From positions 1-64,000 of the forward strand of contig NZ_LGJH01000161.1 in NCBI RefSeq assembly GCF_001298105.1: 64,000 nucleotides of DNA. The letters run 5' to 3'. Below the pieces are notes generated by a model. That model was not told the origin of the DNA and did no database searches. It saw nothing but the letters and a program-made list of their open reading frames with translations. The position numbers and the translations under genes were made by a program. Origin of the DNA: Novosphingobium sp. ST904. Lineage in GTDB: Bacteria > Pseudomonadota > Alphaproteobacteria > Sphingomonadales > Sphingomonadaceae. This document shows, piece after piece, positions 8,062-24,945 of this stretch (the stretch's first letter is position 1; each line of letters opens with the position of its first letter).

Positions 8062-9229
8062 TCAATCGCGCGCCAGCAGCAGCGCTGCCGCCATCGGGCC
8101 GCCGCCCGAGGTGCGACCGCGAGCTTGGGGTCGCCGCCGATCTGCCGTTCGCCGGCCGCGCCGCGAAGCTGGGTCACGGCCTCGTGCGCGAAGCCGAAAC
8201 CGTGCAGCCGGCCCGCGCCGAGCTGCCCGCCGAACGTGTTGAGCGGTAATTCGCCATCGCGCGCGATGCGCTTTCCACCTTCGATGAAGCGGCCGCCTTC
8301 GCCCTTGGGGCAGAACCCGAGCCCTTCCAGCCAGGTGATCGGCAGGAACGCGAACCCGTCGTAGAACTGCACGGTATCGACATCGGCCGCCGTGTAGTCG
8401 GTGCGGGTCCAGAGATCGGCGCCGGTTTCGTAGGCGGCGAATTCCTCGACCTGATCCCACGAGTAGCGATCCACCGAACCGGACATGGCGGCGATGCGGA
8501 TCGGCGTTGCCGTGACTTCGTCCAGCGCGTCACCCGCCGAGACGATGACGACGGTGGAAGCGTCCGAGAAGCGGTCGCAATCGTAGAGGCACAGCGGCGT
8601 GGTGATCATCCGCGCGACATGTACTTGTCGAGCGTCAGTTCTTCCTTGGTGATCGCCCGGGCGCGCGGGTTGGCCATGGCGTTCTTCGAACCGTTGATGG
8701 CGATCTGGGCGAGCTGTTCGCGCGTCATGCCGTAGCGGTGCATGTGCCGGGCCGCATACTGCGCCGTCCAGCAGGCTGCCGACGTGGCCCAGAACGGGCT
8801 GGTCCACTGCGAGGACCCGGTGACGGTATCCTGCTTCGCGCCGGACATGTACTGAGCCGGATCGGCCATGCCGCCCGCTTCGTAGACCGTGCGGAAGCAG
8901 ATGACATGGCGGCAGACCCCCTGCTTCACAGCCATGGCCGCCATGCCGATGGCGGAGAGCTGCGCGGGCTGTTCCATCGCGCCCATGTGCCACTTCGACT
9001 TGATGCCGAGCACTTCGATGAGGTCTTCGCTGCCGACCGGGGAGAAGGCGGTATAGCCGTTCATCTTGCCGGGGTAAGTGAAGACGCCGTCGATCTGGTC
9101 GAGCCGGAGCCCGGCATTGTCGAGCGCTTCGCGCACGGCATCGACCGTGAGAAGCAGCGGATGGCGCGGCAGGCGCACGCCGACTTCGGACTGGCCGACG
9201 CCGGTGATATAGGCTTCCTTGCCGGCCAT
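8062..9229 (-). CDS. Thiolase-fold protein, probable Ltp2-type aldolase (two frame breaks)
   Basis: Thiolase-superfamily protein of 389 residues after repair. The beginning AYITGVGQSEVGVRLPRHPLLL and the end GGQLGAGRLHGFGFAHEAVTQLRG match the sterol-carrier-protein/lipid-transfer thiolase group. The nucleophilic cysteine of true thiolases is missing: the expected position near residue 85-90 reads HMGAMEQPAQLS. Loss of this Cys together with a DUF35 partner immediately upstream (TGATG overlap) is the arrangement of Ltp2-ChsH2 steroid side-chain aldolases, so retro-aldol cleavage of a beta-hydroxyacyl-CoA is the better guess. Single-base deletions break the frame at about 8609 (DKYMSR/MITTPLCLYD) and about 8111 (PKLAVA/SGGGPMAAAL). 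It is the last gene of the eight-gene operon. Confidence 0.8.
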
Positions 9230-9633
9230 CAGGCGACTTTCTCGAAGAGGGGATAGAATATGCCGTCCTGTTCCTCGAATGTGACGCGAACCTTGTCCTC
9301 GAAGTCCACGGTTTCCACGGGGCTACCGACGATGTTCGTGGTGAGAAACACGCCGGGCGCGCCGTCCAGCTTCACGCGGGCGATTACGTAAGGCACTTCC
9401 AGCCCCTTGGCCCAGGGCTGGTGGTTCACCGTGAAGCTGTCGATCGTGCCGGTTCCGGGAACGGCGTGAGGGGCAACGTTCTCCGACTGGCAATGGCGGC
9501 ACAGAATGCGCGGCGGATGCGTGAATTCTCCGCAATCGCCGCAACGGGTGATGTTGAGCTGTCCTTGGCCACCGCCGGTCCAGAAGGCGGTGTTTTCCTG
9601 GTCCAGCTTGGGCTTGGGCCTGGGTGGATTCAT
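9229..9633 (-). CDS. DUF35 OB-fold/zinc-ribbon protein, acyl-CoA-associated
   Basis: Protein of 134 residues with an N-terminal rubredoxin-like zinc ribbon (C-G-D-C ... C-R-H-C) and an OB fold (FTVNHQPWAKGLEVPYVIARVKLDGAPGVFLTTN is the core strand region). DUF35 proteins bind the acyl-CoA chain and pair with thiolase-fold enzymes; some are needed for retro-aldolase activity. Its stop overlaps the start of the thiolase-fold gene as TGATG, which suggests translational coupling and a complex. ATG 9633 is preceded by GGGGAGA. It lies 112 bases downstream of the flavin oxidoreductase gene on the same strand. Confidence 0.9.
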   Translation of the reverse strand: MNPPRPKPKLDQENTAFWTGGGQGQLNITRCGDCGEFTHPPRILCRHCQSENVAPHAVPGTGTIDSFTVNHQPWAKGLEVPYVIARVKLDGAPGVFLTTNIVGSPVETVDFEDKVRVTFEEQDGIFYPLFEKVA

Positions 9634-9745
9634 GTCGGGTCTCTCCCCTGTTTTGCCGCGACAGTTCGGTGTGGCGGGGCTTTGCGTCAAGGCGAGCGGG
9701 GGATTGATCGCGGGGGCGCGCGCGATCCTTTCCCGCATTCACCGC

Positions 9746-10666
9746 TCAGCGCAGACCGGGCATGATCTCCTCGGCGATCCACTGGGTGTAATCGCGATAG
9801 GCCTCGATTCCGGGCAGATTCGGGATCGGGATCGAGCTCCAGGTAACGCCCCATTCGGCCAGTTGGCCAAGCCGGTCCAGAAGCTGCTGCCCGGTCTGGC
9901 CGGGCCGGGCGGAAGGGTCGTGCTGTACTTTGTGCCCCTCACCGACGCGCGCTGTGGAAATGCCGTAGAACACGTCCGCAAGCTGGCCGTTGTAGTCCGG
10001 CTGCGAGCGGATGAAGTCGATCCTGTCGGGGATCGTCTCGGGCTTCGTCAGGAACGGCCACCAGCCTTGCGCATAGCGCGCGGTGCGCTTCAGCACGGCA
10101 TCGGCATCGCCGCCGAACCACACCGGGATATGCGGTTTCTGCACCGGCTTCGGTTCGAAAGCGACATCGCGGAAGGAGACGTACTTGCCCTCGAATTCCG
10201 GGTTTTCCTGGGTCCAGAGCGCGAGGATCGCCTGGATGTATTCCTCCGCCATGGCGCCGCGTTCGTGGAAGGGGATGCCGAGCAGGGCGAATTCGTCCTC
10301 CAGCCAGCCGACTGCGAACGTGATCGTCACGCGGCCGAAAGAAAGCCAGTCCATCGTCGCCAGCGCCTTGGCGGTGACGATCGGGTGCTGCGCGGGCAGG
10401 ATGGCGATGCAGGAATTGACCCGCACCCGCTCTGTGGCCCCGGCGAAGTGGCTCATCGCGGTATAGGCGTTGAAGTAGAATGGGCCGGAAAGATCGACGT
10501 GGGCTTTCGGGATCACGTGATGCTCGGGCACCGCGATCATCTCGAACCCCAGCTTTTCCGCCCATTTGGCGAGCGCGGTCTGGTCCGCGCCGGTGACGGC
10601 CAGTTCCCATGGCTGCATCGTCGCCTTGAGTTCGAGCATGTGCGGCATCGCGAATGCGAGTTTCAA
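9746..10666 (-). CDS. LLM class flavin-dependent oxidoreductase
   Basis: Luciferase-like TIM-barrel oxidoreductase of 306 residues using reduced FMN or F420. Recognisable blocks are EKLGFEMIAVPEHHVIP, ATERVRVNSCIAILPAQHPIVTAK, the core GRVTITFAVGWLEDEF and KPHIPVWFGGDADAVLKR. I propose TTG 10666 as start: it gives LKLAFAMPHMLELK, follows AAGGGTG, and lies 11 bases after the stop of the CoA-transferase gene. The longer in-frame start at 10819 would run back through that gene. Whether FMN or F420 is the cofactor cannot be read; the flavin reductase gene near 23.7 kb favours FMN. It may be a monooxygenase or dehydrogenase in the island pathway. Confidence 0.85.
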   Translation of the reverse strand: MKLAFAMPHMLELKATMQPWELAVTGADQTALAKWAEKLGFEMIAVPEHHVIPKAHVDLSGPFYFNAYTAMSHFAGATERVRVNSCIAILPAQHPIVTAKALATMDWLSFGRVTITFAVGWLEDEFALLGIPFHERGAMAEEYIQAILALWTQENPEFEGKYVSFRDVAFEPKPVQKPHIPVWFGGDADAVLKRTARYAQGWWPFLTKPETIPDRIDFIRSQPDYNGQLADVFYGISTARVGEGHKVQHDPSARPGQTGQQLLDRLGQLAEWGVTWSSIPIPNLPGIEAYRDYTQWIAEEIMPGLR

Positions 10667-10677
10667 GAATTCACCCT

Positions 10678-11885
10678 TCAGTCGATCACTTTGCGGGCTA
10701 TCAGATCGTCCATTTCGCTTTCCGACAAGCCCAGAAGCTCGCGGTAGACATAGCCATTGTGCTCCCCGAGCAGGGGAGCGCCGCGTTCGACCTGCGGGCC
10801 TTCGGGGCTGATCCGCCATGACGGACCGATGATCGGACGGGTTCCATTGCGGTGATCGCTGACCATGCGGAAGGCATCGCGGCCCCAGAGGAAACCGTCC
10901 GAGCAGAGGTCCATCGAGCTCATCGCCTTGAACGCCGGAACGCCCGCGTTTCTGAGCTTTTCGGCAAGGTCTGCGGCGTGGTGCGGGCGGGTGAGCGAGG
11001 AGAGTTCGGCATCGAGTTCGGCGCGGTTGGTCAGCCGGTTCGCCAGCGTCGTAAAGCGCGGGTCGTGGCGAGGGCAGGGGCGCCCAGCGTGTTGCAGAGT
11101 GCGCGCCATTCGGCCTCGTTCGCCACCGCGATACTTGTCCAGCCGCTCTCGCCGCAGGGGTAGAAACCGTGCGGGGCCATCTCCGGGTGGTGGTTGCCGT
11201 CGGCCTTGGGCACGTCTCCGGTGACGCTGGCGGCGAAGAGGCTGTCTCCGACGAGGCTGGTCATCGCCTCCACCGCCGACAGGTCGATGAACTGGCCTTC
11301 GCCGGTGCTCTCGCGGTGGTGGAGCGCGGCCACGCAGGCGAGTGCGGCAAGCGCGCCGGCGGTGGAATCGCCGTAGCGGATGTTCATGCCCTTGGGCGTC
11401 TCGCCCTCATGCCCCACCAGCGCGGTGAGGCCGGAGAGCGCGGCGAAGCAGGGGGCGTAGCCGGTCTGATAGCCCAGCGGGCCGTCGCTGCCCCACATCT
11501 TGATCGCGCACTGGATGAGGTCCGGCTTGATCGCCTTGAGGCTTTCGTAATCGAGGCCGGACCGCTCCATCGCGCCGGGGCGGATGTTGTCGATCAGCAC
11601 GTCGGCCTCGGCGATCATGCGCTTCACGAGGTCCAGCCCCTCGGCGGTCTTCATGTTGACCTGAACCGAGAGGATCTCCTGATTGATCGAGAGGAAATAG
11701 GGCGCGGCGTCGATGTTCACGCCGCCATAGGCGCGCATCTCGTCCAGGTTGGAGCGGGATTCGATCTTGATCACTTCCGCGCCGAGGTGGGCGAGCAGCT
11801 TGCCCGCGTAGGGGCCGGCCCAGACTTTGGTGAGTTCGACAAAGCGGATGCCGGCGAGGGGGCCTTTCCGGTCAGGAAGCGGCAT
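10678..11885 (-). CDS. CaiB/BaiF family III CoA-transferase (frame broken)
   Basis: CoA-transferase of about 402 residues after repair. GIRFVELTKVWAGPYAGKLLAHLGAEVIKIE is the family N-terminus; TGEGQFIDLSAVEAMTSL is the second conserved block. It differs from the usual sequence after VIKIE by SRSNLDEMRAYGGVN in place of PP-GxGDxxR. A single missing base at about 11069 breaks the frame between TLGAPALA and DPRFTTLANRLTNRAELDAEL. It overlaps the preceding CoA-transferase gene by 14 bases, so two members of the family are translated from neighbouring cistrons; they could form a heteromer or act on two acids. Substrate unknown. Confidence 0.85.
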
Positions 11886-13032
11886 CGAGGATATCCTCCT
11901 GATCGGCGCCGAGACAGGGTGCTGCGGCCTTCACCGAAACCGGCGTGGCGCTCATGCGGTAGGCAGCGGTGGGGTAGGAGACGTCTCCGAACGCCGGATG
12001 CACCGCCTGCTGGAAGAAGCCGCGATGGACGAACTGTTCGAGGCGGGGCAGGTCATTCGCGGTCTGGACCGGCACCATGGCGACGCCCGCCTTCTGTGCG
12101 GCCTCGGTAATCGGATGCTTGTCCTGCCGGGCGATCCAGCCGGTGAAGTGTTGGCGGAATTTCGCGACATTGGGCGCGGTGCAGTCGAACTCCAGCCAGT
12201 CCTCCCGCAGTTCCCGCGTCCATGCCGGATCGCCCATCAGCGCGCAGAGGCCCTTCCAGTGCGCGCGGCTGGTCATCAGCAGGAAGACATGCCCGTCGCG
12301 GCAGGCAAAGGACGTGCCGGGGCCGCCCATGTCGTAGGCGGTGCGTTCGTCGCTGGGCTCGGCCTCGCCCGCCAGCATGCGGTCGAGCACGCAGTCAATG
12401 CGGTTCAATTGCACTTCCACTTCGGAAATATCGACGAACTGGCCCTGACCTTTGCGGCGCAGGCGCAGCAGCGAGGCCAGGGCGGCCAGCGCGGCGTCGA
12501 TCCCGGCTTCGTAGTCCGAGAGGAACCGGCCCGCGCCTTTCAGCGGCGGCTTGTCGGCAGGCGTTTCGCTAGGGCTGTGATAGGCCCAGCCACCCGCCGC
12601 GATGACGTTGATCGGGCGGGCGGATTGCCAGCCTTCCGGCGCATCCTGCCCGAACGGCGTGACCAGCGTGTGCACCAGCGCGGGATGCGCTGCGGCGACC
12701 GCTTCGGGCAAGAGGCCCATCGCCCTGCACCAGCCCGCGTCGTGATCGTCGATCAGGCCATGGGCGCGAGCGAGCAGGCGGTCCAGCACCTTGCGATCCG
12801 CGGCATCGGCAAGGTTCAGCACGACCGATTTCTTGTTGGTATTGAGGTAGGCGAACAGCGTCGATTCCCCCGCCGCGAACGGCCCCATCGCGCGCGTCGG
12901 AGCGCCGCCGGGGCGTTCCACCTTGATCACTTCGGCGCCGAGATCGGCCAGCAGCTTGCCGGTATATTCCCCGCTCACCCGCTCGGCGACCTCGATCACG
13001 GTCAGCCCTTCGAGGGCACCTCTGCTCGTCAT
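11872..13032 (-). CDS. CaiB/BaiF family III CoA-transferase
   Basis: CoA-transferase of 386 residues in one intact frame. LEGLTVIEVAERVSGEYTGKLLADLGAEVIKVERPGGAPTRAMGPF is the expected start, and GQGQFVDISEVEVQL the second conserved block. ATG 13032 overlaps the stop of the SDR gene as ATGA, and the 3' end overlaps the next CoA-transferase gene by 14 bases. The same frame stays open far upstream on this strand, but that part is the shadow of the SDR and Rieske genes. Together with its neighbour it probably activates a pathway acid by CoA transfer from another acyl-CoA, sparing ATP. Confidence 0.9.
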   Translation of the reverse strand: MTSRGALEGLTVIEVAERVSGEYTGKLLADLGAEVIKVERPGGAPTRAMGPFAAGESTLFAYLNTNKKSVVLNLADAADRKVLDRLLARAHGLIDDHDAGWCRAMGLLPEAVAAAHPALVHTLVTPFGQDAPEGWQSARPINVIAAGGWAYHSPSETPADKPPLKGAGRFLSDYEAGIDAALAALASLLRLRRKGQGQFVDISEVEVQLNRIDCVLDRMLAGEAEPSDERTAYDMGGPGTSFACRDGHVFLLMTSRAHWKGLCALMGDPAWTRELREDWLEFDCTAPNVAKFRQHFTGWIARQDKHPITEAAQKAGVAMVPVQTANDLPRLEQFVHRGFFQQAVHPAFGDVSYPTAAYRMSATPVSVKAAAPCLGADQEDILDAAS

Positions 13033-13781
13033 AGCGATTGCCCGTCGTCGATCGTGAATGTGGCGCCCGTCACTTGCGCGGAGGCGTCGGAAAGCAGGTA
13101 GAGCAGGGTGGGCGTCAGCGCCTCGGCATCGAGCAGGCGGCGGCGGTGGAGGGCGGCGATGTCGGCTTGTCCGCGCTCGCTGGCGAACCAGTCGGTGTTG
13201 ATCTCGGTGGCGATCCAGCCGGGTTGCAGGGTGTTGACGTTGATCCCCTGCCGCATCCATTCGCGCGCCAGTTGCCGGCCCAGGTGGGCAAGACCCGCCT
13301 TGGTGGCCGCATATAGGGCATCGCCGGTGCCGCTCTGCAGCGCGGTGATCGATCCGATCAGCACCACGCGCCCGCGTTGATGCTCGCGACTGCCGCCCGC
13401 GATCAACCGCCGTCCGGCCTCGCGCGCGACCAGCATCGCGCCGAGCAGGTTGGTATCGAGCACGCGGCGCAGCCCGTCTTCCGGCACATCGGTGGAGCGG
13501 CCGCCGGTGCCGACACCGGCATTGCAGATCACGCCATCGATCGTGCCGAACCGGGCCTCTGCCGCATCGAAGGCAGTGCGCACCGAAGCCTCGTCCGTCA
13601 CGTCCAGCTCGACCGCCAGCGCCTCGCCCAGTTCCGCCGCCAGCTTGGCGCAGCGGTCCACCCGCCGCGCGCCCAGCACGACGCGTCCGCCCGCAGAGGA
13701 AATGGCGCGCGCGAAACCGGCGCCGATCCCGGAGGAGGCGCCGGCGACGAAAACAGTGCGACCCGATAGTGAAAACGTCAT
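13029..13781 (-). CDS. SDR family oxidoreductase
   Basis: NAD(P)-dependent short-chain dehydrogenase of 250 residues. AGASSGIG at about residues 14-21 binds the cofactor, CNAGVG replaces the usual NNAG, and the catalytic Ser (LIGSITALQ) and YAATK motif are present. GATFTIDDGQSL closes the protein as in classical SDRs. Start and stop are fused to neighbours: its ATG overlaps the Rieske stop (TGATG) and its stop overlaps the CoA-transferase start (ATGA). The position right after a Rieske oxygenase is that of a cis-diol dehydrogenase, but oxidation of another alcohol of the pathway is equally possible. Confidence 0.88.
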   Translation of the reverse strand: MTFSLSGRTVFVAGASSGIGAGFARAISSAGGRVVLGARRVDRCAKLAAELGEALAVELDVTDEASVRTAFDAAEARFGTIDGVICNAGVGTGGRSTDVPEDGLRRVLDTNLLGAMLVAREAGRRLIAGGSREHQRGRVVLIGSITALQSGTGDALYAATKAGLAHLGRQLAREWMRQGINVNTLQPGWIATEINTDWFASERGQADIAALHRRRLLDAEALTPTLLYLLSDASAQVTGATFTIDDGQSL

Positions 13782-15209
13782 CAGCGTTGAAGGGCCCTAA
13801 AGTCAGGTTGATAGGGCGGCAGCGCCATGTACTTGTCGATGGTCTGTTCGAAGTGGCGCACGCGCACTTCCTGATAGTCGCCCAGGGTGATGCCGGGCTT
13901 GGCACTCGCTTCCAGACCTTCCTGCTGGGCGTAGAGGTTGTCGGTATCCTGATCGAGGATATGGCCGAAACCGGGGTCCATGCCTTGCGCCTCTGCAAAG
14001 GACTGGTGATCCTGCAGGATCTCCACCTCGGCCGTTTCCACCTCGCGGCCGTCCTTGGGCTTGGGCCGCATGAACATCACTTCGTAGATCGTGCGGCGAT
14101 GGTCGCGCGCGTCGGGGCGGAAACGGTAGATCATCGGCAGCGAGATGCCGGGGAACAGGAACAGGTTCGGGAAGAACGTGTAGCTGTAGGTATCGAGCAG
14201 TTCGGTATCCGAAACGTGGCTGAGATCGGTGTTCGTTGCCGTTTCGAACATGTCGCGGAACATGTCTGCCATGACCTGCCGCGCGCGTTCGCCCGCCTTC
14301 AGTTCGGGCTTGCTGCCGCCCAGCGAGGAACTGTCGCCCAGCGTGAAGTTGGCGATGATGTCCGCCTCGCTGTACTTGTCGCGCAGTTTGGGGCTGACCA
14401 CGCCGAGCGTGGAGATGAAGCGGTCCACGTGATCGCCGTAGACATCGTACTGCGAGTTCACGTCGCCATTGGCAGGCGCCACTTGCGGGTGCGTGTCGCC
14501 GACGTGATAGGCCTCCATGAAGGCCTCCATCGTCAGCTTCCAGTTGGCCGGATAGCTCTTCTGGACGTGGAGGTAGATGTAGCGATCCTCCAGCTTCCAC
14601 GCCTTGAGATGAGCGAGGGCCTCGGCGCCGAGGTACTCTTCAAGGCCGGGCGCGGCGGGGTCCGATGTTGATCCAGACGAAGCCGCCCAGCCGCTCCACC
14701 CGTGCTTCGGGCAGGCACATCTTCCGCGTGGCGACATGGGCGAAGTCCCACTTTTCAGGGATTTCCTTCAGCGATCCGTCGAGGTTCCAGGTCCAGCCAT
14801 GGAACGGGCACTTCAGGTTCGCCGCGAAGCCCGCCGTGCCGGAGGGCTTGAGCTTGGTGCCGCGATGGAGGCAGGCGTTGAAGTAGGCGCGGATCTCGTC
14901 ATCGTCACAGCGGGTGACGATGAAGGAGTACGATCCGATGTCGTAGACGTAATAGTCGCCCACTTCGGGAATGTGATCCTCTCGGCAGGCCATCTGCCAG
15001 GTGCGCGTCCACATCCGCTCGAACTCCGCTTTGGCGAAGGCGGGATCGGTGTAGCGCTGCTTGGAAACGTCCTCGCTGCCGAGGTAGTGGTAGCTTTCGC
15101 TGGCGGCCCAGGCGGGGGCGGCGTTGCGGTCTGCGGCGATGATGTCCTGCGTGGATTCGGCGGGGCAGCGGGCCTCGCCGGGCTGCAGCGTTCCGGTGGC
15201 GACGTTCAT
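13781..15209 (-). CDS. Aromatic ring-hydroxylating (Rieske) oxygenase alpha subunit (frame broken)
   Basis: Rieske non-heme iron oxygenase of about 475 residues. The 2Fe-2S cluster motif is complete (CLHRG ... CPFHGW) and the catalytic domain has the iron-binding 2-His region EAFMEAYHVGDTHPQ. Such enzymes hydroxylate aromatic or alicyclic rings or demethylate ethers. One extra G at about 14663 breaks the frame between FVWINI and DPAAPGLEEYLGAEALAHL. ATG 15209 has AAGGAG 7 bases upstream, inside the end of the amidohydrolase gene. No beta subunit or reductase gene is in the window; electrons may come from the ferredoxin encoded divergently at 16747. Confidence 0.9.
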
Positions 15210-15220
15210 TCCGAGGCTCC

Positions 15221-16506
15221 TTATTCCGCCGCTTCGAGCGTCGGCGTGCTCGCATGTGTTGCGAGGGCAGGGCTGATTTTCTGGACCGCGCCGTCCTTCA
15301 TCACGAAGGCGACCTTTTCCGGCCCGGCGAGGATGGAGATATCGGCGATCGGATCGCGTCGATCAGGATCAGGTCGGCCAGATTGCCCGGCGCCAGTGTG
15401 CCGAGTTCGCCGCCGTATCCCATGGCGAGGCCGCCGTTGCGGGTGGCGCAGACCAGCGCCTCGGCCGGGGTGTAGCCGTAGAAATCGACGAAGGATTTGA
15501 GGTCGCGCCCCTGCGTGCCCTGCGGGCTCCAGCCGAAGCCATAGTCGCCGCCGATCAGGTGGCGGATGCCGCGCTTGCGCAGTTCGGTATGCGTGCGCAG
15601 CGAGTTTTCCAGCAGATCCGGAATGTTCATGTAGCCGCCCAGTTCGGGCGAGAGGCCATGCGCCGAAGCCTCACCCGCCATGATCTGCGCGAAAAGGCCG
15701 ACGGTGGGCACCACGAAGATGCGGTCCCGCGCCTCCTCCATCATGTCCAGCAGCTCCTCGTCCACGTATTCGCAGTGGAACAGGCCGTCCACGCCCGCCC
15801 GGACGCAGTGCTTGGAGCCTTCGATGGAGCGGGTGTGGGCGTTGATCTTGCGGCCATAGGCATGGGCCGTTTCGGATGCGACGCGCACTTCCTCGAACGT
15901 CATCGGCGTCGTGTTGCCGGGCGTGCCGGGGTAGAACGGATCGCCCGAGACATCGAGCTTCACGTTGTCGATCCCCTCGCGGCAGTGGAGGCGCACGGTC
16001 TTGCGCATCTCTTCCACGCCGTCGACGATGGCGGAGGGGCCGATCCGCGGATTGTGGAGCTTGCTCTCATCCCCCATCGCGCCGGTGACGGAGATTTCGA
16101 GGCCACCCGCACGGATGCGCGGGCCGGGCAGACGGCCGGCGTTGACCTCGTCCCGCACGGCGACGGCCAGTTTCAGCTTCGCCTCGGAGGCGCCGTAGGC
16201 AGAGGTAAAGCCCGCCTCGATCAATGCCTTGGCCCCGCGCGCGGCGGTGAAGACCTGCGTTTCGGGGCAGGGGGTGATCAGATCCTCGGTCGCGCAGACA
16301 TTCTCGAACGAGAGGTGCGCGTGGCCTTCGACCATGCCGGGCATCAGGAACATGCCGCTGGCGTCGATCGTGATGTCGTCCGGCTGCGCGACGGTTGCGG
16401 TGCCGACCGAGGTGATACGGTTGCCCTCGACCACAAGGTCGCCCTTGATCGTGCTTTTGCCCGTCCCGTCGAATATCGTGGCGTTCTGGATCAGTGTCCG
16501 TCCCAC
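15221..16506 (-). CDS. Amidohydrolase family protein (frame broken)
   Basis: Metal-dependent hydrolase of about 428 residues, imidazolonepropionase-like branch. First metal motif HAHLSFEN, then NVKLDVSGD (candidate bridging lysine), NAHTRS and HCEYVDEE histidines, and the catalytic aspartate in GGDYGFGW are all visible. One missing base at about 15350 truncates the frame; restoring it continues LILIDA into DPIADISILAGPEKVAFVMK and ends in TAA at 15221. GTG 16506 is chosen because AAGGAG precedes it; a GTG 21 bases further out lies inside that site. It is the first gene of the eight-gene operon. It may open a lactone, lactam or amide formed in the pathway. Confidence 0.87.
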
Positions 16507-16522
16507 GGTTTTTCTCCTTCTG

Positions 16523-16542
16523 GCCACGGGTGTTCTCGTGGC
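16523..16542. promoter_or_regulatory. Inverted repeat, candidate operator between divergent catabolic operons
   Basis: GCCACG and CGTGGC, separated by eight bases, form a 20-base dyad 17 bases upstream of the amidohydrolase GTG. It lies in the 240-base region dividing the minus-strand operon from the ferredoxin-P450 operon, where one regulator could control both. A LacI or TetR type protein is a guess from spacing only. Confidence 0.4.
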
Positions 16543-16746
16543 TCTTGGGGAGGCAGGTTAGGAGGGAGGTGCGGCGCGGCAAATGACGGGCCGGGCAGAG
16601 GGCTTGTCCTGTACCGGAAGGCCCGGCGGCTACGTGGTGGCGGTTTTCCCGCTGGGGCAAGTCGCAAGGCACGGGGAGCGCTTTGCGCGGCCTCCCGGCT
16701 GCGGCATCACCTATGAAAACCAAACGAAGAGGACCGGGCCGGACTT

Positions 16747-17082
16747 ATGGGCAACCTTCATGTCACCATGACCGACATCGACGGCGTGAAGCACGAATTT
16801 TCCGATGTGGATGAGGGCGTGAGCCTGATGGAACTCGGCCGTGGGCGCGGGGTTGCCGGGATCATGGGCGATTGCGGGGGAGGCTGCGCCTGCGCGACCT
16901 GCCACGTCTACATTTCGCAGGACTGGTGGGACGAAGTGGGTGAGCCGGACGAGGTGGAGTTCGCCATGCTCGACATGGTGGCGGACGTCATGAAGGACAC
17001 CAGCCGCCTGGGCTGCCAGATCAGGATGAGCGATGATCTGGACGGCTTGGAAGTCACCGTGGCGCCTGCGTCGGGGTACTGA
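16747..17082 (+). CDS. 2Fe-2S ferredoxin (putidaredoxin/adrenodoxin type)
   Basis: Electron carrier of 111 residues. Cluster cysteines follow the C-x5-C-x2-C ... C pattern in GDCGGGCACATCHVYI and LGCQIRMSD, diagnostic of the class that feeds cytochromes P450. The acidic segment VGEPDEVEFAMLDMVADV matches the partner-docking helix of this class. The gene starts the plus-strand operon 119 bases before the P450 gene, so P450 reduction is the likely job; sharing with the Rieske oxygenase is possible because no other ferredoxin is nearby. No ferredoxin reductase is encoded in the window. Confidence 0.93.
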   Translation: MGNLHVTMTDIDGVKHEFSDVDEGVSLMELGRGRGVAGIMGDCGGGCACATCHVYISQDWWDEVGEPDEVEFAMLDMVADVMKDTSRLGCQIRMSDDLDGLEVTVAPASGY

Positions 17083-17201
17083 TCCTTCCCCTCGGGGCAA
17101 GCCTTGGTTCGAGGGCGGGCATGGCTGGCCGTCGCCGCGCGGTCCATAGAACATGACAAGAGGCGGCACGAACCGCTGCATCAATTCACGGGACAGGGTA
17201 C

Positions 17202-18538
17202 ATGGCAACGTCAACGCAAATTGGGGCAAGCGAAGACCGGATCAGCGAGCGGCGGGAACTCACCGCCGAAGAGCAGGCGCTGCTGGGCAGCGGTTCGCTG
17301 GCCGATACCACGATCCAGGCGCAGCCTAACCCGTTCTACCGCGTCATGCGCCACGGCGATCCGATCCACTATGACGAGCGGCTCGGTTCCTGGCTGGTGA
17401 CGCGGCACGAGGATATTGCGCAGATCCAGTCCGACCCGGTGACCTTCTCGGTGAAGCACGGCTATTCCGAACAGCAGGCGCGCGGGATGCGGGAGGAGTT
17501 TCAGGCTTACCTCGAAGAGCATGGCGGGGGCTATTTCCCGGACGCGATCATGTCCGATCCGCCCTATCACACACGCATCCGCAAGCTGATGGAGCAGGCC
17601 TTCACCGCGCACCGCGTGAAGGAACTGGAGCCGCGCATCACCGAAGTGGTGCGCGGGGTGATCGCCGATGTGGTGGCGCGCGGCGATGGCCGGTGCGATG
17701 CCGTAAAGGACATCGCGATTCCGCTGACCATCCGGGTGATCGTGGAGCAGCTCGGGCTCGATCAGGGCATGGAGGAGCAGATTTCGCGCTGGTCGGTCGC
17801 GGTCACCGCGCAGATCGGCGCGATGCAGAGCCGCGAGACGATGCTGGCCAATGCCGCGCAGATCGCGGAGCTTCAGCAATACCTGATCGCCAAGATGAGG
17901 CAGCGCGAGGCGAACCCGTCGGAAGACATGCTTTCCGATCTGGTTCATGCGCAAGTTACCAATGAGGATGGCGGCAAGGAGAAGCTGACCTTTGCAGAGG
18001 CCGTCTCGCTGGTGCGCGCCACGCTGATCGCGGGCAACGACACCACTGCGACCGCCATCGGCAACCTGTTCTACGTCCTCACCACGCGCCCCGGCATGGC
18101 CGAACTGCTGGAGAGCGTGGCGGACGACGATCGCCAGCTGGGTCGCTTCGTGGAGGAGCATTTGCGCGCCGAACCGCCGGTGCGCGCGCTCAGCCGCATG
18201 ACCACGCGCGAAGTCACCGTGAACGGCACGACGATCCCGGCCCATGCGCATATGCTGCTGGTCTACGGATCGGGCAACGTGACGAGACGGTGTTCCCGGA
18301 GCCGCGCAAGTTCGATCTGACGCGCCCCAATCTCGGCCGCCACGTGGCCTTCGGCGGCGGCCCGCACCGCTGTATCGGGCTGGCGCTGGCGCGCATGGAA
18401 GTGAAGGTGGCCGCGCGGGAGATCGTCCGGCAGATGAAGAACCTGCGTCTCGCCATTCCCGAAAGCGCGATCCGCTACACGCCCACCGTCGCCACGCGCA
18501 CCATCGAGTCGCTGCCGATCACTTTCGAGGCGCGCTGA
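17202..18538 (+). CDS. Cytochrome P450 (frame broken)
   Basis: Soluble bacterial P450 of about 445 residues that inserts one oxygen atom into a C-H bond. The oxygen-binding I-helix reads LIAGNDTT, the ExxR pair is EHLR, and the heme loop is FGGGPHRCIGLALARME with the cysteine ligand. A missing base at about 18280 breaks the frame between VYGSGN and DETVFPEPRKFDLTRP, just before the heme loop. ATG 17202 follows GGGACAGGG. The 3' end overlaps the SDR start (TGATG). In context it should hydroxylate the island substrate, with electrons from the ferredoxin upstream; the substrate cannot be told from sequence. Confidence 0.92.
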
Positions 18539-19407
18539 TGGAACTTGCGGGCAAAGTGGCGGTCGTGACCGGCGGCGCCAGCGGCATCGGCCGCGCCACC
18601 GTGGAACTGTTCGCGGCGGAGGGCGCAAAGGTCGTCATCGCCGATATCGCGGACGAGGCGGGAGAAGCGCTGGCGGAAAGGCTGGGCGCTTCGGCGGTCT
18701 ATCAGCGCACCGACGTATCCGATCCGGCGGCGGTGGAGGCGATGATCGAGGCCGCCGTCTCCCGCTTCGGCGGGATCGACGTGCTGTTCAACAATGCGGG
18801 CATGTCCTGCGGCGCGTTTCCCAGCTTTCTGGACGATACGCTGGAGGATTTCGACCGGGTGATGCGCGTCAACGTGCTTGGGCCCATGCTGGGCACGCGC
18901 AATGCGGCGCGGATCATGGCGAAGGCAGGCCCAAATGGTCAAAAACGGGGCGGCGTGATCCTCAACAATGCCTCCATCGCCGGCACGCTCGCAGGCCATG
19001 CGATGATGACCTATCGCGCGTCGAAGGCGGCGCTGATCCAGTTCTCCAAGTCCTCCGCCATCGATCTGGCGCGGCACGGCATCCGGGTGAACTGCATCGT
19101 GCCGGGCCATGTGCGCACCGAATTGTCCTCGTTCGGAGAGAAGGGGGCCGAGAACGGCCTTGCCGCGCGGATCGAGGAGGGGGTGAATGCGGTCTACCTC
19201 TCCAACCAGCTCATCAAGCGGCGCGGAGAGCCGGAGGACGTGGCGCAAGTGGCGCTGTTCCTCGCCAGCGACCGTTCGCGCCACATGACCGGCGCGGTGA
19301 TCCCGGTGGAAGGCGGCGTGACCGTGGGCGATCCGGTCAACCATCTGGAGCAGATATTCGACGCTCGCGCCGCGGCATTCGCGGCGATGGAGCGGCTCGA
19401 CGGCTGA
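18538..19407 (+). CDS. SDR family oxidoreductase
   Basis: NAD(P)-dependent dehydrogenase of 289 residues. TGGASGIG at about residues 11-18, acidic residue after strand beta2 (VIADI) favouring NAD, NNAGMS, and the catalytic YRASK are present. MTGAVIPVEGGVTVGDP is the usual closing strand. It is translationally coupled to the P450 (TGATG overlap), so oxidation of the alcohol made by the P450 is the natural reading. The TonB receptor gene follows after 66 bases on the same strand. Confidence 0.9.
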   Translation: MELAGKVAVVTGGASGIGRATVELFAAEGAKVVIADIADEAGEALAERLGASAVYQRTDVSDPAAVEAMIEAAVSRFGGIDVLFNNAGMSCGAFPSFLDDTLEDFDRVMRVNVLGPMLGTRNAARIMAKAGPNGQKRGGVILNNASIAGTLAGHAMMTYRASKAALIQFSKSSAIDLARHGIRVNCIVPGHVRTELSSFGEKGAENGLAARIEEGVNAVYLSNQLIKRRGEPEDVAQVALFLASDRSRHMTGAVIPVEGGVTVGDPVNHLEQIFDARAAAFAAMERLDG

Positions 19408-19473
19408 AGACCCCGAAGACGGGGCGAAGCATTGGAAGCGGTGGTGTGCCGCTTCCCGGGGAGGAGAGGGACC

Positions 19474-21831
19474 ATGAGGAACTGGCTGAAGGCCGCGCTG
19501 GCGGCTGGAACGGTGCTGTCTGGAATGGACGGCGCCTATGCACAATCGCAGCAGGCATCGCCGGGCGGCGTTACGATCCACGAAGGCGATATCGTCGTCA
19601 CCGCGCGGCGGCGTGACGAAAGCCTGTCCACCGTGCCGGCGGCGATCACCGCCCTCAATGCCACCGATCTGGTCGAGCGCGGGGTGAAGACCGATTCCGA
19701 CCTGCAACGCATCGCGCCGGGCCTGACGATCCGCCAGACGCAGGGCAACAACTCGCTGACCTATTCGATCCGTGGGCAATCGGCGGATACGTTCTCGGGT
19801 TCGCCCTCGGCGGTGATCGCCTACCTCAACGAAGTGCCGCTGACGATCAACAGCGCTTCCTCGTTCTACGATCTCGAGAACGTGCAGGTCCTGAAAGGCC
19901 CGCAGGGCACGCTGTTCGGGCGCAATGCCACCGGCGGCGCGGTGCTCTACAATTCGGCCAGGCCCAGCGACAAGCTGGAGGCGGCGCTGACCGGCCGGGT
20001 CGGCAATTACGGCATGTGGGAAGGCGAGGGGATGCTGAACGTGCCCCTGCTGGCGGACAAGATCCTGCTGCGCGGCGCCTTCGACGTGATCCGCAAGGAC
20101 GGCTACATCCGCAACCTGCTCAACGACGAGCGTCTGGGCGACATCCGCCGCGACAGTGGCCGTGTGACGCTGACGGTGGAGCCCACCGACACGATCAGCA
20201 ACACCACCATGCTGCAATATACCAACACGCGCGCACCAATACCGGTGCGTCCTACACTTACAGCGTCTATTCCTGCGGCCAGACCAACAACGGCTTCGCG
20301 CTGACCTGCGGGGCAGGGCTGCTGTTCGGGCCGACGCTCGATTCCGTCGCCGGACCGGGCGCGTGGGAGGCTTATCTCGCCGCGCATCCGGATGCCTATG
20401 CGCCGGGCCTGATCGACTACGTGAACGAACAGCGCCGCATCGGGCCTTACAAGACGCGCCATCCCGGCGGGGCCAGCCACCATGGCAAGGACTGGTTCCT
20501 CACCAACACAACCGAAGTCGACCTGAGCGACAGCGCCAAGCTGCGCAACATCTTCGGCTGGTCGGATTCGAAAACCCGCTCCGAACAGCCTCAGCTCGGC
20601 GCGCCTTTCGTGACGATCCTGACCGCCAATGCCGCTGCGGGCGAGTTCGGAAACCAGCTGAAGGTCCGCTCCGTCTCCGAGGAATTGCAGCTGGTCGGCG
20701 ATGCGATGGATGGCAAGCTGGACTATATCTTCGGCTATTACTTCCAGAAGCAGCGCAGCGACACGCTCTGGCCGCAGACCTATTTCGATGTCTCGCCGAT
20801 CATTCCGCCCAGCTACGTCACCAACAACTTCCGCATCCGCAACCGGACCAATGCGGTCTACGGCCAGGTGTCCTATGCCGTGTTGCCGGACCTGAAGCTG
20901 ACCGGCGGCCTGCGCTACACCTGGGAGCGGGTCTCGATCGCCCAGTTGCCCGGCGCGACCTATACTTACGGCGCGCGACCAGAAGAAGACCTTCTCCGAT
21001 CCGTCATGGGAAGTGGGGCTGGAGTACAAGGTTTCGCCGGAGTGGTTCGCCTATCTCAAGACGCGCGGCAGCTTCCGTTCGGGCGGCTTCAACGGTGCGG
21101 CCCCGCCGGTCAACGCGACGGCTACCGATGGCGGCAACCTGTTCAATTCCGAACACACGCAGGATATCGAAGGCGGCCTGAAGTACGCCGGTGACGTGAT
21201 GGGCCGCCCCGCGAACTTCGCCAGCGCCGTGTTCATCCAGTGGGTGCAGGATGTGCAGCGCGTGGAGTTCCCCGATCCGGATGGCCCCGGCGGGCTCGCC
21301 TCGATTGCGGTGACCGCCAATGTGCCTTCGGAACGCATCTGGGGCTTCGAGGCGCAGGGCAATCTCCGCCCGGCGACGTGGCTCGAACTGGGCGGTTCGG
21401 CGGCCTATACCAAGGCGACGTTCACGAACGGAAACATCGAACTGTTCGGCACGCCCTATTCCTATGGTCCGGTAGGCGATACGCCGGAGTTCTCCGGCAC
21501 GGCCTATGCGCAAGTCTTCCTGCCGGTGGGTGAGGAGGCGGGCGAAGTCTCGCTGCGCGGCGACCTTTATGGGCAGACGGCGCAATACTTCTCCAATGCG
21601 GCCAACTCGATCGCGCCGGGAACGAAGCTGCCGGGCTATGTGCTGGTGAACGGGCGGCTCGACTGGAACGGGATCATGGGATCGGACTTCTCGGCCGCGC
21701 TCTTCGTCAAGAACGTGACCGACAAGGCCTATTTCGTCGGCGGCATGACGCTGGCCGCAGCGCTGGGCCACAATGCCGCTGCCGTGGGCGAGCCGCGCAC
21801 TTACGGGCTGGAGATCCGCTACCGATTCTGA
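19474..21831 (+). CDS. TonB-dependent outer membrane receptor (two frame breaks)
   Basis: Ligand-gated outer-membrane channel of about 785 residues. A signal peptide ends near AYAQS; a TonB-box-like stretch EGDIVVTARRRDESLSTVPAAI leads into the plug (VQVLKGPQGTLFGRNATGGAVLY), and the barrel ends with GLEIRYRF, the terminal Phe needed for assembly. The frame breaks at about 20235 (one base lost, NTR/TNTGASYTYSVY) and about 20977 (one base gained or two lost, TYTYGA/DQKKTFSDPSW). ATG 19474 follows GAGGAGAGGG. It closes the P450 operon, so it probably imports the hydrophobic substrate or a product of outer digestion, as in many sphingomonad degradation clusters. Confidence 0.9.
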
Positions 21832-22610
21832 ACGAAGGCGGTGATTTCCCCCGCCAGCCTGGCGGGAATTTCGAGGTTGAGCAGGTGGCCGGCGCCTTCA
21901 TGGTCGATCCGCGACACCTGCTCGCTCGCAGCATCGATCAGGGCGGCCATGAGCCGGAAGTCCTCGGTGTCGCGGCTGCCGGTCAGCAGCAGGGTCGGCG
22001 TGGCGAGATCGGTCAGCCGCTCGGCCTCGGGCAGTTCCGGGCGCTGGTCGTCCTGTATCCATTGGCGGCCGTGAAAGGCTTCTATCCCGGCGCGGAGCCG
22101 CTGTGACTCCAGGCTTTCGCGCGTGGTTTCGAACAGGGGGTGATTCCACCAGAGCTCCCGGGCGGACGCGATATCGCCGCCCCGTGCGGCGCGGCCGATC
22201 GCTTTCCAGCGCTCGATCCAGTCCGCGCTCCAGGACCAGCCCAGCATGAGCGGGCTGACCATCACCAGCCGCCGCACGCGCTCCGGGTGGTTCAGGGCGA
22301 AGTTCAGCACGGTGCCCCCGCCAAGCGAGAGGCCGCACAGGTCTGCTTGCGCAATGCCGAGGGTTTCGAGCAGGGCGAGCAGGTCGTCCGAATGGGAGAA
22401 CGGCACGCCGGGAGCGCCGGTGGAATCGCCGAAGCCGCGCTGGTCGTAGGCGATCAACGGAAGGTCGGCGGGCAGGGCGGCCACGATCGGCTCCCAGTCG
22501 TGCCGGGAGCCGCCGAAACCGTGGACCAGTACGAGCGGCGTCCCGGATCCCTCGCGGCGGTATCCCGAAAGCGTGGCTCCGCCGGTTTCGATGCTGAAGT
22601 CTTGCGTCAT
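21819..22610 (-). CDS. Alpha/beta hydrolase
   Basis: Hydrolase of 263 residues with a complete triad layout: oxyanion strand LVHGFGGS, nucleophile elbow GLSLGGG, acid in LLLTGSRDTEDF, and His in DHEGAGHLLNLE. ATG 22610 is chosen because the longer in-frame start at 22646 adds twelve unrelated residues. It converges on and overlaps the TonB receptor gene by 13 bases. Esterase, lactonase or C-C hydrolase activity are all possible; location beside the oxygenase operon suggests an ester or enol-lactone intermediate. Confidence 0.87.
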   Translation of the reverse strand: MTQDFSIETGGATLSGYRREGSGTPLVLVHGFGGSRHDWEPIVAALPADLPLIAYDQRGFGDSTGAPGVPFSHSDDLLALLETLGIAQADLCGLSLGGGTVLNFALNHPERVRRLVMVSPLMLGWSWSADWIERWKAIGRAARGGDIASARELWWNHPLFETTRESLESQRLRAGIEAFHGRQWIQDDQRPELPEAERLTDLATPTLLLTGSRDTEDFRLMAALIDAASEQVSRIDHEGAGHLLNLEIPARLAGEITAFVQNR

Positions 22611-22654
22611 GCGCAGGAGGCTAGCGCGCCCGCACGCATGACGCACTGATCAAA

Positions 22655-23407
22655 TCAGGCAGAGCCCATGTAGCGGCCGCCATTGGTGCTGATCGTCTGC
22701 CCGGTCATGTAGCTGGCTTCCTCGGAGGCGAGGAAAGCTGCCGCCGCCGCGATGTCCTCGACCTTGCCGAGGCGCTTGACCGGGAGGGACTTGCCATAGG
22801 CCTCGGCGTCGATCGGGGCCTGGCGCAGCATCGGCGTGTCGATCGAGCCGGGCGGGATCATGTTGGCGGTGATGCCGGTGCCGCCCAGTTCCATCGCCAG
22901 CGCCTTGGTCATGCCGAGCAGGCCGCCCTTCGACGAGACGTAGTGGCTTTGCGCAAAGGAGCCGGACTGGGTGGAAGAGGAAGTGATGTTGATGATCCGC
23001 CCCCACTGCGCCGCCAGCATGTCCGGCACGATTTCCTTGGTAACCAGCCACGGTCCCTTGAGGTTGATGCGGATCACCTTGTCGAACTCGTCCTCGCCGA
23101 TATCCAGGAAAGGCGTGAAGGGTGCGATGCCGGCATTGTTGACGAGGATGGTGATCGGGCCGAACGTGCCGCGTGTTTCGTCGGCGGCGGCCTTGATCGC
23201 GGCCTTGTCCGAACAGTCGGCGGTGATCGCCAGGGCCTTGCCGCCGGCTTGCTCGATCAGCCGCACCGTTTCGGCCGCGCCTTCGGGATTGAGGTCCCAT
23301 ACGGCGATGGCGGCCTTGTCCTCGGCAAGGCGCAGCGCGATGCCGCGCCCGATGCCCGAGCCGCCGCCCGTGACGACGGCGACCTTGCCTTCAAGCGAAC
23401 GTGTCAT
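22655..23407 (-). CDS. SDR family oxidoreductase
   Basis: NAD(P)-dependent short-chain dehydrogenase of 250 residues. TGGGSGIG at about residues 13-20, an aspartate after strand beta2 (AVWDLNPEG) typical of NAD preference, NNAGIA, SSSTQSG with the catalytic serine and HYVSSK with Tyr and Lys are intact. MTGQTISTNGGRYMG is the expected end. ATG 23407 has GGGAGAG upstream. It reads away from the flavin reductase gene region, 77 bases apart, same strand. 3-hydroxyacyl-CoA dehydrogenase-like activity is plausible; substrate unknown. Confidence 0.9.
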   Translation of the reverse strand: MTRSLEGKVAVVTGGGSGIGRGIALRLAEDKAAIAVWDLNPEGAAETVRLIEQAGGKALAITADCSDKAAIKAAADETRGTFGPITILVNNAGIAPFTPFLDIGEDEFDKVIRINLKGPWLVTKEIVPDMLAAQWGRIINITSSSTQSGSFAQSHYVSSKGGLLGMTKALAMELGGTGITANMIPPGSIDTPMLRQAPIDAEAYGKSLPVKRLGKVEDIAAAAAFLASEEASYMTGQTISTNGGRYMGSA

Positions 23408-23484: not shown

Positions 23485-23988
23485 TTACATGCGTTCGGCG
23501 AAACCGCCGTAGCGGCCTTTGTGGAACAGCATGGGATCGTTCTCGCGCACTGCTTCCATGCGCAGCACTTCGCCCAGCACGAACCAGTGGTCGCCCGCTT
23601 CGGTTACCGAATAGAGGCGGCATTCGATCGCGGCGATCGAGTCCGCGATGATCGGCAGGTTATGGTCCGATACCGTATATTCCACGCCGACGAACTTCTG
23701 GTCGCCCTTGGCCGTGACGGCCCGGCAGACTTCTGTCTGGTCGCTGGCCATGACGTTGACGCAGAAATGCCCGGCCTTCTCGATCAGCGGCCAGGACGAG
23801 GACTTCCTGTCGGGGAAGAAGCCGACCAGTGGCGGATCGAGCGAAACGGAGGTGAACGAGCCGACGACCATGCCCGCGGGCTTGCCATCGTCGAGCGCGG
23901 TGATCACGCAGACGCCGGTCGGGTAGCTGCCCAGGACCTTGCGGAACTCGGCCGGGTCGATGGTGGTCGTGGTCACTGGGTCTGTCAT
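23485..23988 (-). CDS. Flavin reductase domain protein
   Basis: Protein of 167 residues of the HpaC/ActVB type that reduces FMN or FAD with NAD(P)H for a partner monooxygenase. The sequence FRKVLGSYPTGVCVITALDDGKPAGMVVGSFTSVSLDPPLVGF is the family signature (flavin-binding ST-S motif), followed by FCVNVMASDQ and GDHWFVLGEV. ATG 23988 gives the normal N-terminal length. It could supply reduced flavin to the luciferase-like oxidoreductase encoded at 9746, the only flavin oxidoreductase of that kind in the window. LysR lies just upstream but on the same strand after its own stop. Confidence 0.9.
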   Translation of the reverse strand: MTDPVTTTTIDPAEFRKVLGSYPTGVCVITALDDGKPAGMVVGSFTSVSLDPPLVGFFPDRKSSSWPLIEKAGHFCVNVMASDQTEVCRAVTAKGDQKFVGVEYTVSDHNLPIIADSIAAIECRLYSVTEAGDHWFVLGEVLRMEAVRENDPMLFHKGRYGGFAERM

Positions 23989-24013
23989 CCTGTTACTGCG
24001 ATGTTGCGACGCA

Positions 24014-24907
24014 TCATGGCTTGAGAACTCCCTCCATCCGTCGGGCGGTTTCGTCAAGCCATTGGCGGAAGAGCGTCACCCGCGGAAGCTTGCGGATATC
24101 CTGGTGAGTCACGAACCAGAATGCGCGGGTTATCCGGCATTCGGGCAGGACCTGAACCAGTCTCGGATCGGAATCGGCCATGAAGCAGGGCAGGACGCCA
24201 AGCCCGCCGCCGCTGGCGACGAGACTGTGCTGCGCGGTGATGCTGGGCGAGCGGATCGCCGCCTTCAGGCCCGGCTGGATCTCGTCTAGATAGCGCAGTT
24301 CGGGCGAATAGAGCAGGTCGGGAATGTAGCCGACCATGGCATGGCCCTCCAGCAGGTCTGCCGGGCGCGCGGGGCTGCCGTGGGCATCGAGATAGTCCCG
24401 CGTCCCGTAGAGGGCGAGCGTGTAGTCCGAGAGCTTGTGCGCCACCAGCGGCCCGGTGCGGGGGCGGGAGAGCATGACAGCGACATCCGCCTCGCGCCGG
24501 GTCGGGCTGAGGAACCCGCTGCTGGCGACGAGATCGATGGCGAGGCGCGGGTGTTCAGCCTGGAATCCGGGCAGGTGCCGGGCAAGGAACCAGCAGCCGA
24601 ATCCTTCCGACGTGCTGATGCGCAGGGTGCCGTAAAGGCCGTCGCTGCCCTGGGCGGGTTCGGTGATCCGGCCGGCTGCGCTGGCCATGGCCTCGACCGA
24701 GGAGAGCAGGGTTTCGCCTGCCTCGGTCAGTTCCTGGCCGCTGCGGGTCTGTTCGAACAGCGTGGTGCCGAGCGCGGCTTCAAGGCGGCGCAGGCGGCGT
24801 CCCACGGTGGTGGGGTCCACCCCGAGCAGCCGTGCCGCTCCCGCCAGTTGCCCCGCCCGGGCGATGGCGAGGAAGGCCTGGTAGTCGCTCCAGTCAATGG
24901 AATGCAT
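24014..24907 (-). CDS. LysR family transcriptional regulator
   Basis: Regulator of 297 residues with an N-terminal winged helix (YQAFLAIARAGQLAGAARLLGVDPTTVGRRLRRLEAALGT) and a periplasmic-binding-like effector domain (LRISTSEGFGCWFLARHLPGF ... SGGGLGVLPCFMA). ATG 24907 is chosen over TTG 24913. It diverges from mmsA with a 158-base space that contains a dyad, so control of the valine operon is likely. The family usually binds a pathway metabolite as co-inducer; which one cannot be read. Confidence 0.9.
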   Translation of the reverse strand: MHSIDWSDYQAFLAIARAGQLAGAARLLGVDPTTVGRRLRRLEAALGTTLFEQTRSGQELTEAGETLLSSVEAMASAAGRITEPAQGSDGLYGTLRISTSEGFGCWFLARHLPGFQAEHPRLAIDLVASSGFLSPTRREADVAVMLSRPRTGPLVAHKLSDYTLALYGTRDYLDAHGSPARPADLLEGHAMVGYIPDLLYSPELRYLDEIQPGLKAAIRSPSITAQHSLVASGGGLGVLPCFMADSDPRLVQVLPECRITRAFWFVTHQDIRKLPRVTLFRQWLDETARRMEGVLKP

Positions 24908-24945
24908 CGTCAAGGTATCGTCACTGCGGAGAATTGTCCGTCCGG

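Follow-up and report, generated by a model that had tools for sequence, protein, structure and literature searches.

A conserved catabolic island of Novosphingobium with a probable F420-dependent oxidoreductase and a putative retro-aldolase

Gene content, integrity and conservation of the island

The first 64,000 nucleotides of contig NZ_LGJH01000161.1 of Novosphingobium sp. ST904 (the window; the contig, C122 in this analysis, belongs to a 6.27 Mb genome in 165 contigs and the window is its start) carry a catabolic island in which class III CoA-transferases, an oxidoreductase of the luciferase-like monooxygenase family (LLM) and a DUF35/thiolase-fold pair are encoded in a row. A reading made from the DNA letters alone (the sequence-only reading) had described a divergent island of twelve genes at 8062–21831. 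We scanned 20 open reading frames (ORFs) at 8–24 kb with Pfam and NCBIfam profiles, and every gene that it had named was supported, in the order and on the strands stated. The minus strand encodes a thiolase-fold protein, the probable subunit of a retro-aldolase (8062–9229); its DUF35/ChsH2-like partner with zf-ChsH2 and OB_ChsH2_C domains (9229–9633; matches to PF12172 and PF01796); the 306-residue LLM (9746–10666); two CoA-transferases of the CaiB/BaiF class (CaiB1, 10678–11885; CaiB2, 11872–13032); a short-chain dehydrogenase (SDR1, 13029–13781); a Rieske oxygenase alpha subunit (13781–15209); and an Amidohydro_1 hydrolase resembling Xaa-Pro dipeptidases (15301–16527). On the plus strand follow a [2Fe-2S] ferredoxin (16747–17082), a cytochrome P450 (17202–18538), a second short-chain dehydrogenase (SDR2, 18538–19407) and a TonB-dependent receptor (19432–21831).

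PF02515 covers both CoA-transferases over its full length, at positions 1–365 in CaiB2 and in two pieces, 1–267 and 251–366 of 366, in CaiB1; the nearest solved relative of CaiB2 is the benzylsuccinate CoA-transferase subunit 9fn0. Neither a CoA ligase nor a Rieske beta subunit was found among the 20 ORFs, in keeping with the earlier view that the pathway activates its substrate by CoA transfer and has no acyl-CoA ligase. The minus-strand junctions had been described as mostly overlapping or shorter than 15 bases, which is correct for five of the seven: four overlap (by 1, 4, 14 and 1 bases) and one is an 11-base gap, the looser two being amidohydrolase–Rieske (91 bases) and LLM–DUF35 (about 110 bases). 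A promoter scan of the divergent intergenic gap found no promoter.

The sequence-only reading missed that six of the twelve are frameshifted as assembled, namely those for the thiolase-fold protein, CaiB1, the Rieske subunit, the amidohydrolase (at its 3′ end), the P450 (at 18279) and the TonB receptor (twice). In G110, a two-contig genome labelled as the same species and 98.7% identical to the window over 38.8 kb, the frames are open, and the thiolase-fold protein, CaiB1, the Rieske subunit, the P450 and the receptor measure 389, 402, 475, 445 and 800 amino acids. The alignment (window 1318–40142) contains 23 indels, all of a single base except one of two bases; 11 fall inside the island and 12 outside. 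Because the frames are open in G110 and indels also occur outside the island, the frameshifts look like sequencing errors. A decaying island with real frameshifts and no present function is very improbable in this strain: six broken genes and the somewhat denser indels of the island (11 in 13.8 kb against 12 in the other 25.1 kb of the aligned stretch) would fit decay, whereas 12 of the 23 indels outside the island and the open frames of a genome of the same species speak against it. Errors in the draft assembly are likely contig-wide, so other reading-frame findings in the window need care. The ferredoxin of the window has the motifs that we take to mark a working enzyme, as do the P450 and the Rieske protein when read from G110.

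When named genomes were scanned once with an LLM profile, 45 LLM-centred loci emerged, in which gene modules were called by scripted identity thresholds. The amidohydrolase, Rieske, both CaiB, ferredoxin and P450 genes occur together with the LLM in 18 of the 45. Both modules are present in 13 of these 18 loci, which also carry DUF35 and thiolase genes; the other five combine the P450/Rieske/CaiB module with the LLM and have no DUF35/thiolase genes in the fetched stretch, which in one case (L090) ends at the LLM. Eight further loci show other combinations. The 19 with neither module come from Frankia relatives, mycobacteria, other single genomes and metagenome-assembled genomes (three of these Sphingomonadales), and their neighbouring genes differ by homology search, four having been inspected by eye. 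The loci were selected by the LLM and several are truncated where a contig stops, so the frequency of the other genes in its absence cannot be read from them; an orthologue search with the island P450 provided a check independent of that selection. The island is conserved and co-inherited in Novosphingobium, well beyond chance. With the set together in 18 loci the genes are not dispersed in all relatives, the outcome that the sequence-only reading had named as its refutation.

The boundary at 21831 proved too narrow. An alpha/beta-hydrolase (21819–22646), a FabG-like short-chain dehydrogenase (SDR3, 22655–23407, start chosen by eye; a cluster member in some relatives) and an HsaB-like flavin reductase (23485–24057; 178 bits, under the NF045630 cut-off of 230), all on the minus strand, have counterparts that travel with the LLM in relatives in varying combinations, and these three genes at 21.8–24.1 kb belong to the cluster too. 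The earlier statement that no reductase gene is present is accurate up to 21831 and fails for the real cluster. In N. resinovorum (G029) the flavin reductase, SDR3, hydrolase, LLM, DUF35 and thiolase genes form a row, and the P450/Rieske/CaiB module is not there.

Two observations concern other loci of the set. A variant core of flavin reductase, ferredoxin, LLM, DUF35 and thiolase genes occurs in G016 and G012 (L042 and L044), where it adjoins genes recognised by eye as acyl-CoA dehydrogenase-like, enoyl-CoA hydratase-like and nitronate-monooxygenase-like. A Novosphingobium-type island is also present in a record with the title Actinobacteria bacterium 21-64-8 (L078); the genome panel described below places this genome in the genus, and the title looks wrong.

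The LLM and its association with F420

The LLM scores 200.6 bits against TIGR03619 (F420_Rv2161c), above the curated cut-off of 166.9, and the same genome carries npdG, cofE, cofD and fbiC, the four genes covered by our search, each above its cut-off, at one F420 locus (L106, contig C89, 5272–12552). The LLM resembles the TIGR03619 subfamily in these respects; its setting is what differs, a sphingomonad operon that also holds CaiB, Rieske and DUF35/thiolase genes. We consider the LLM probably an F420 enzyme, its cofactor being predicted from these matches. This F420 link makes it the most unusual part of the island, although the sequence-only reading had given it no role. The F420 locus is itself adjoined by a further LLM-like and an SDR-like gene (by eye), an arrangement repeated in G005 (L117).

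Co-occurrence was assessed in a genus panel of 195 genomes, our own included, with LLM matches accepted at E 1e-60 or better and cofH as the marker of F420 biosynthesis. The LLM is present in 55 genomes and cofH in 79; cofH accompanies 54 of the 55 LLM-bearing genomes and 25 of the 140 others (Fisher P = 2e-27, uncorrected for descent), and the sole exception, G186, is 71% complete. When LLM orthologues were cut by hand, cofH was present in 43 of 44. The pattern extends beyond the genus. From the 45 loci, 22 were taken into the cofH search, and 21 of these LLM-bearing genomes have cofH, or 15 of 16 once six that share cofH coordinates with genus genomes already counted are removed; eight of the 16 are non-actinobacteria by record title, seven with cofH. 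The genome lacking it is Solimonas soli, whose match covers only LLM residues 1–82. By comparison, cofH was found in 44 of 289 genomes drawn from the class. Paralogous LLM matches (46–52% identity) lie within 6 kb of cofH in 11 of 18 cases and other matches in 0 of 45, in a check that took 30 cofH places, including all those on contigs also bearing an LLM match.

To correct this association for descent we used an rpoB tree built from 60 genomes (24 with the LLM, 16 with F420 only and 20 with neither), on which the LLM requires 13 changes and F420 nine. Eleven independent pairs differ in the LLM; F420 differs in the same direction in four to six of them, in the opposite direction in none, and not at all in the rest (median P = 0.031, range 0.031–0.125), pair numbers that depend on genome choice because the 60 were picked by label. 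As a control we used the FMN-dependent LLMs of TIGR03860, which on the same tree mostly gave 3 of 14 pairs in the same direction and 0–1 against (median P = 0.25). The link between LLM and F420 survives the correction, but modestly.

Several observations weigh against an F420 role for this LLM. Before correction the FMN control is itself tied to cofH (50 of 89 against 29 of 106 genomes; P = 7e-5), so lineage or lifestyle matters, even if its odds ratio is 3.4 against 248 for the island LLM. Orthologues of the island P450, cut by hand at no less than 68% identity, occur in 36 genomes, all 36 with cofH and six without the LLM at threshold, and on the rpoB tree F420 follows this P450 in a mean of 4.2 of 10 pairs and never opposes it (median P = 0.125); part of the F420 association may therefore be a property of island-bearing lineages, or of their lifestyle. 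In Pseudonocardia parietis (L097), which makes F420 and has cofH, the LLM is broken as well. The LLM is moreover absent from the islands of the close relatives G005, G070 and G125 (L110–L112, L114) and of G214. In the first three CaiB1 runs straight into DUF35, no match to SDR3 was obtained within the cluster, a different TonB gene is present, and SDR1 is missing from G005 and G125; in G214 an SDR gene occupies the LLM's place, and in G094 and G174 the contig ends before that place. We dropped the idea that this SDR substitutes for the LLM, as the same SDR coexists with it in L093, L076 and L037/L078. Since the island persists in some close relatives that lack the LLM, some lineages can dispense with this gene, and the cluster does not require it.

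Sequence and fold comparisons also lean slightly the other way. The best profile match in the PDB is the FMNH2-dependent SfnG (74 bits), with Mer 8 bits behind at 66. For the predicted structure (mean pLDDT 84.7), Foldseek ranks an uncharacterised LLM first, then SfnG and MsuD, with the first F420 enzyme at rank 37, and the VIA Z is 26.8 for a luciferase and 25.7 for the best F420 enzymes. Since FMN and F420 enzymes both match, FMN slightly ahead, the structure cannot name the cofactor. A flavin reductase gene near the LLM in Novosphingobium is likewise what an FMNH2 monooxygenase would lead one to expect. The LLM might instead be a two-component FMNH2-dependent monooxygenase of the type II Baeyer–Villiger kind, fed by that reductase: the P450 and an SDR would yield a ketone, the LLM would insert oxygen, the alpha/beta-hydrolase would open the lactone, and the F420 link would be an effect of lineage or lifestyle. 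Camphor breakdown runs through such a series of ketone, oxygen insertion and lactone opening, and its diketocamphane monooxygenases have the LLM fold. The gene row of N. resinovorum, in which flavin reductase, SDR3 and alpha/beta-hydrolase directly precede the LLM, suits this scheme, as does the report of a luciferase-like enzyme for Baeyer–Villiger oxidation of progesterone in Caenibius tardaugens (PMC12239570). That enzyme, of the pdc cluster, shares the LLM fold and a setting in sphingomonad catabolism; a Baeyer–Villiger role is, however, not what the F420 link of the island suggests, and DUF35, thiolase, CoA transferase, Rieske and F420 are all absent from the main text of that paper.

We regard an FMN-dependent LLM as rather unlikely. 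The LLM co-occurs with F420 biosynthesis inside and outside the genus, and its paralogues sit in F420 loci. G005 and G070 keep the flavin reductase though the LLM is gone (the G125 stretch ends before that gene), and no such reductase was matched in the non-Novosphingobium loci, searched across the fetched flanks at E 1e-10, several of these loci being short.

The active site of the thiolase-fold/DUF35 pair

The best solved match of the thiolase-fold protein is TcLtp2 in 6ok1 (E 2e-41), and that of the DUF35 protein is its partner, ChsH2-DUF35 (E 1e-14), which together form the steroid side-chain aldolase of Thermomonospora curvata; in the island, too, the two genes are adjacent. According to PMC12329534, the base of TcLtp2 is Tyr294 of a YDHF motif, whose His aids the oxyanion, with Tyr344 as the acid, and Tyr302 and Cys304 of a YDCY motif are essential in CtSal, the bile acid aldolase of Comamonas testosteroni that pairs with CtShy. 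We aligned 25 rows, comprising G110 and matches of 72–93% identity with three genomes counted twice. The Ltp2-type base Tyr is invariant, in a YDGF motif found in 25 of 25 rows, and the DUF35 protein of the window has the canonical four-Cys zinc site of the Ltp2 type, C-x2-C-x10-C-x2-C, unlike the Cys3His1 site of the Sal type. The CtSal–CtShy pair is alike in its thiolase fold, DUF35 partner and Tyr base. Other positions argue against a simple assignment to either enzyme: Gly replaces the His of YDHF, the place of the second catalytic Tyr344 reads GRLHG, and Sal's essential Cys304 is Gly in all 25 rows. A further difference from the Ltp2 system is that no MaoC domain was found among the 20 ORFs.

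The same YDGF and GRLHG motifs are shared by relatives in Sphingobium RAC03 and Pseudofrankia, and the pair YDGF…GRLHG would represent a third active-site type of probable retro-aldolase. We propose the histidine of GRLHG, also present in TcLtp2, as a candidate second catalytic residue. The sequence-only reading had spoken of a probable aldolase pair; its nearest solved relatives do form a retro-aldolase, but just one known catalytic residue is kept, and for that reason the term aldolase stays an inference. A lipid-transfer protein of plasmid pIBU218, which need not be IpfD, is 31% identical and has the Ltp2 form (YDHF).

Weaker matches to BbsA/BbsB and PhlB raise an alternative in which the pair acts as a thiolase or in acyl transfer, like BbsAB or PhlABC, and the pathway ends by thiolysis. 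This appears improbable. No other solved protein matches as well as TcLtp2, the Tyr of YDxF that serves aldolases as base is invariant, and none of the 25 rows has a Cys in the aligned N-terminal nucleophile segment (residues about 79–96), a point that also speaks against an SCP2-type or canonical thiolase. We take the nucleophilic Cys of the SCP2 type to lie near residue 90.

Proposed pathway, known systems and neighbouring genes

Taken together, the island may encode the aerobic breakdown of a hydrophobic carboxylic acid, probably alicyclic or polycyclic, or of an amide conjugate of such an acid, with a probable F420-dependent LLM and a retro-aldolase; we give this reading about an even chance. 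The conserved co-directional set, the families of its members, the F420 biosynthesis genes together with the F420 reductase gene npdG, and the near-perfect co-occurrence of LLM and F420 are read from the genomes, whereas the order of steps, the redox directions and the substrate are suggested by gene content. In such a pathway the TonB receptor would import the substrate and the amidohydrolase would release the acid. The P450 with its ferredoxin, followed by SDR2, could convert a C–H bond to an alcohol and then a ketone, while the two CaiB enzymes would place CoA on the carboxylate and the Rieske oxygenase would help to put a hydroxyl beta to the thioester. The LLM may then adjust either the CoA ester or the ring in its redox state by hydride transfer with F420, F420H2 most likely being drawn from NADPH via NpdG. 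The DUF35/thiolase-fold complex would cleave the beta-hydroxyacyl-CoA in a retro-aldol reaction, the YDGF tyrosine acting as base, to an acyl-CoA and a ketone, and the hydrolase, SDR3 and flavin reductase could serve later ring steps. The earlier flow of import, hydroxylation, dehydrogenation, CoA transfer and retro-aldol cleavage is retained for its CoA-transferases and aldolase-like pair; it had omitted the hydrolase and flavin reductase.

One known cluster and one candidate substrate were set aside. The bile acid side-chain cluster of Sphingobium Chol11 presumably comprises a ligase, an acyl-CoA dehydrogenase, a Rieske oxygenase and an amidase. Its gene set differs from that of the island; a review on the subject is PMC8399759. 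Abscisic acid is used by Novosphingobium sp. P6W, according to PMC9599779, and a retro-aldolase would fit its chemistry; nothing found links it to the genes, and as a substrate it is a guess only.

Other described systems share parts of the island. In the ibuprofen ipfABDEF cluster of Rhizorhabdus/Sphingomonas, a thiolase encoded by ipfDE releases propionyl-CoA after a ring oxygenase (PMC9195938). A thiolase acting after a ring oxygenase is the common feature. The ipf oxygenase is, we assume, of the Rieske type, and ipf presumably has a CoA ligase and a dioxygenase beta subunit, in contrast to the island with its CoA-transferases and with neither of those genes found at 8–24 kb. The pathways predicted for SAR202 (PMC5395668) resemble it in that FMN/F420 LLM paralogues, CaiB CoA-transferases and SDRs co-occur and have been proposed to act on alicyclic compounds; they differ in consisting of paralogue families over single-cell genomes with no defined operon, and in the available part of that paper a DUF35 aldolase is not named. 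Plasmid pBSY17_1 of Sphingobium sp. RAC03 (L107) encodes a P450, a ferredoxin, an OB-fold protein, a thiolase (71% identical, YDGF), an amidohydrolase and a CoA-transferase; unlike the island, it has no LLM annotated in the stretch shown and carries an AMP-binding protein and an acyl-CoA dehydrogenase. The pBSY17_1 cluster also bears DUF2889.

Among the papers listed in literature searches, most of them judged from the listing, none was recognised as describing this combination of genes or a use of F420 in the catabolism of Novosphingobium. A paper on the genus lists F420 biosynthesis genes without a role (PMC13318209), and a 2021 review of F420 counts why new producers such as Proteobacteria make the cofactor as an unanswered question (PMC8498797). 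The single parts of the island all fall into known families, whereas neither their combination nor the role as an F420 client was found in the literature searched. We tentatively suggest, at somewhat less than even chance, that Novosphingobium and other LLM-bearing Proteobacteria make F420 at least partly for aerobic CoA-ester catabolism, in which an F420-dependent LLM would act between CoA-transferases and a YDGF…GRLHG retro-aldolase on a cyclic natural product. The island offers a concrete, testable F420 client, one gene in a defined operon with several carriers that are isolates, and G005, G070 and G125, which hold the island without the LLM, can serve as comparison strains, with the reservation that a few more of their genes differ. 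A second lead is the active-site class, so far uncharacterised, of probable C–C-cleaving enzymes related to steroid aldolases, relevant to biocatalysis and to tracing the breakdown of recalcitrant natural products.

Around the cluster, a LysR-type regulator (24014–24913, minus strand; family named by eye) adjoins the flavin reductase gene, as in relatives. A VOC/glyoxalase-fold gene recognised by eye (5112–5533, plus strand) is frameshifted at about 5293, and a similar VOC-like gene adjoins the thiolase in G012 and G016. At 25–31 kb, downstream, lies a valine-type operon with an aldehyde dehydrogenase, an acyl-CoA dehydrogenase, two hydratases and a member of the 3-hydroxyisobutyrate dehydrogenase family. 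A third CaiB gene is located at 1.7–3.0 kb of the window, and near its counterpart in G110, beyond the point at which the window's contig starts, that genome encodes a second Rieske alpha subunit of 487 amino acids (L105, 4999–6462).

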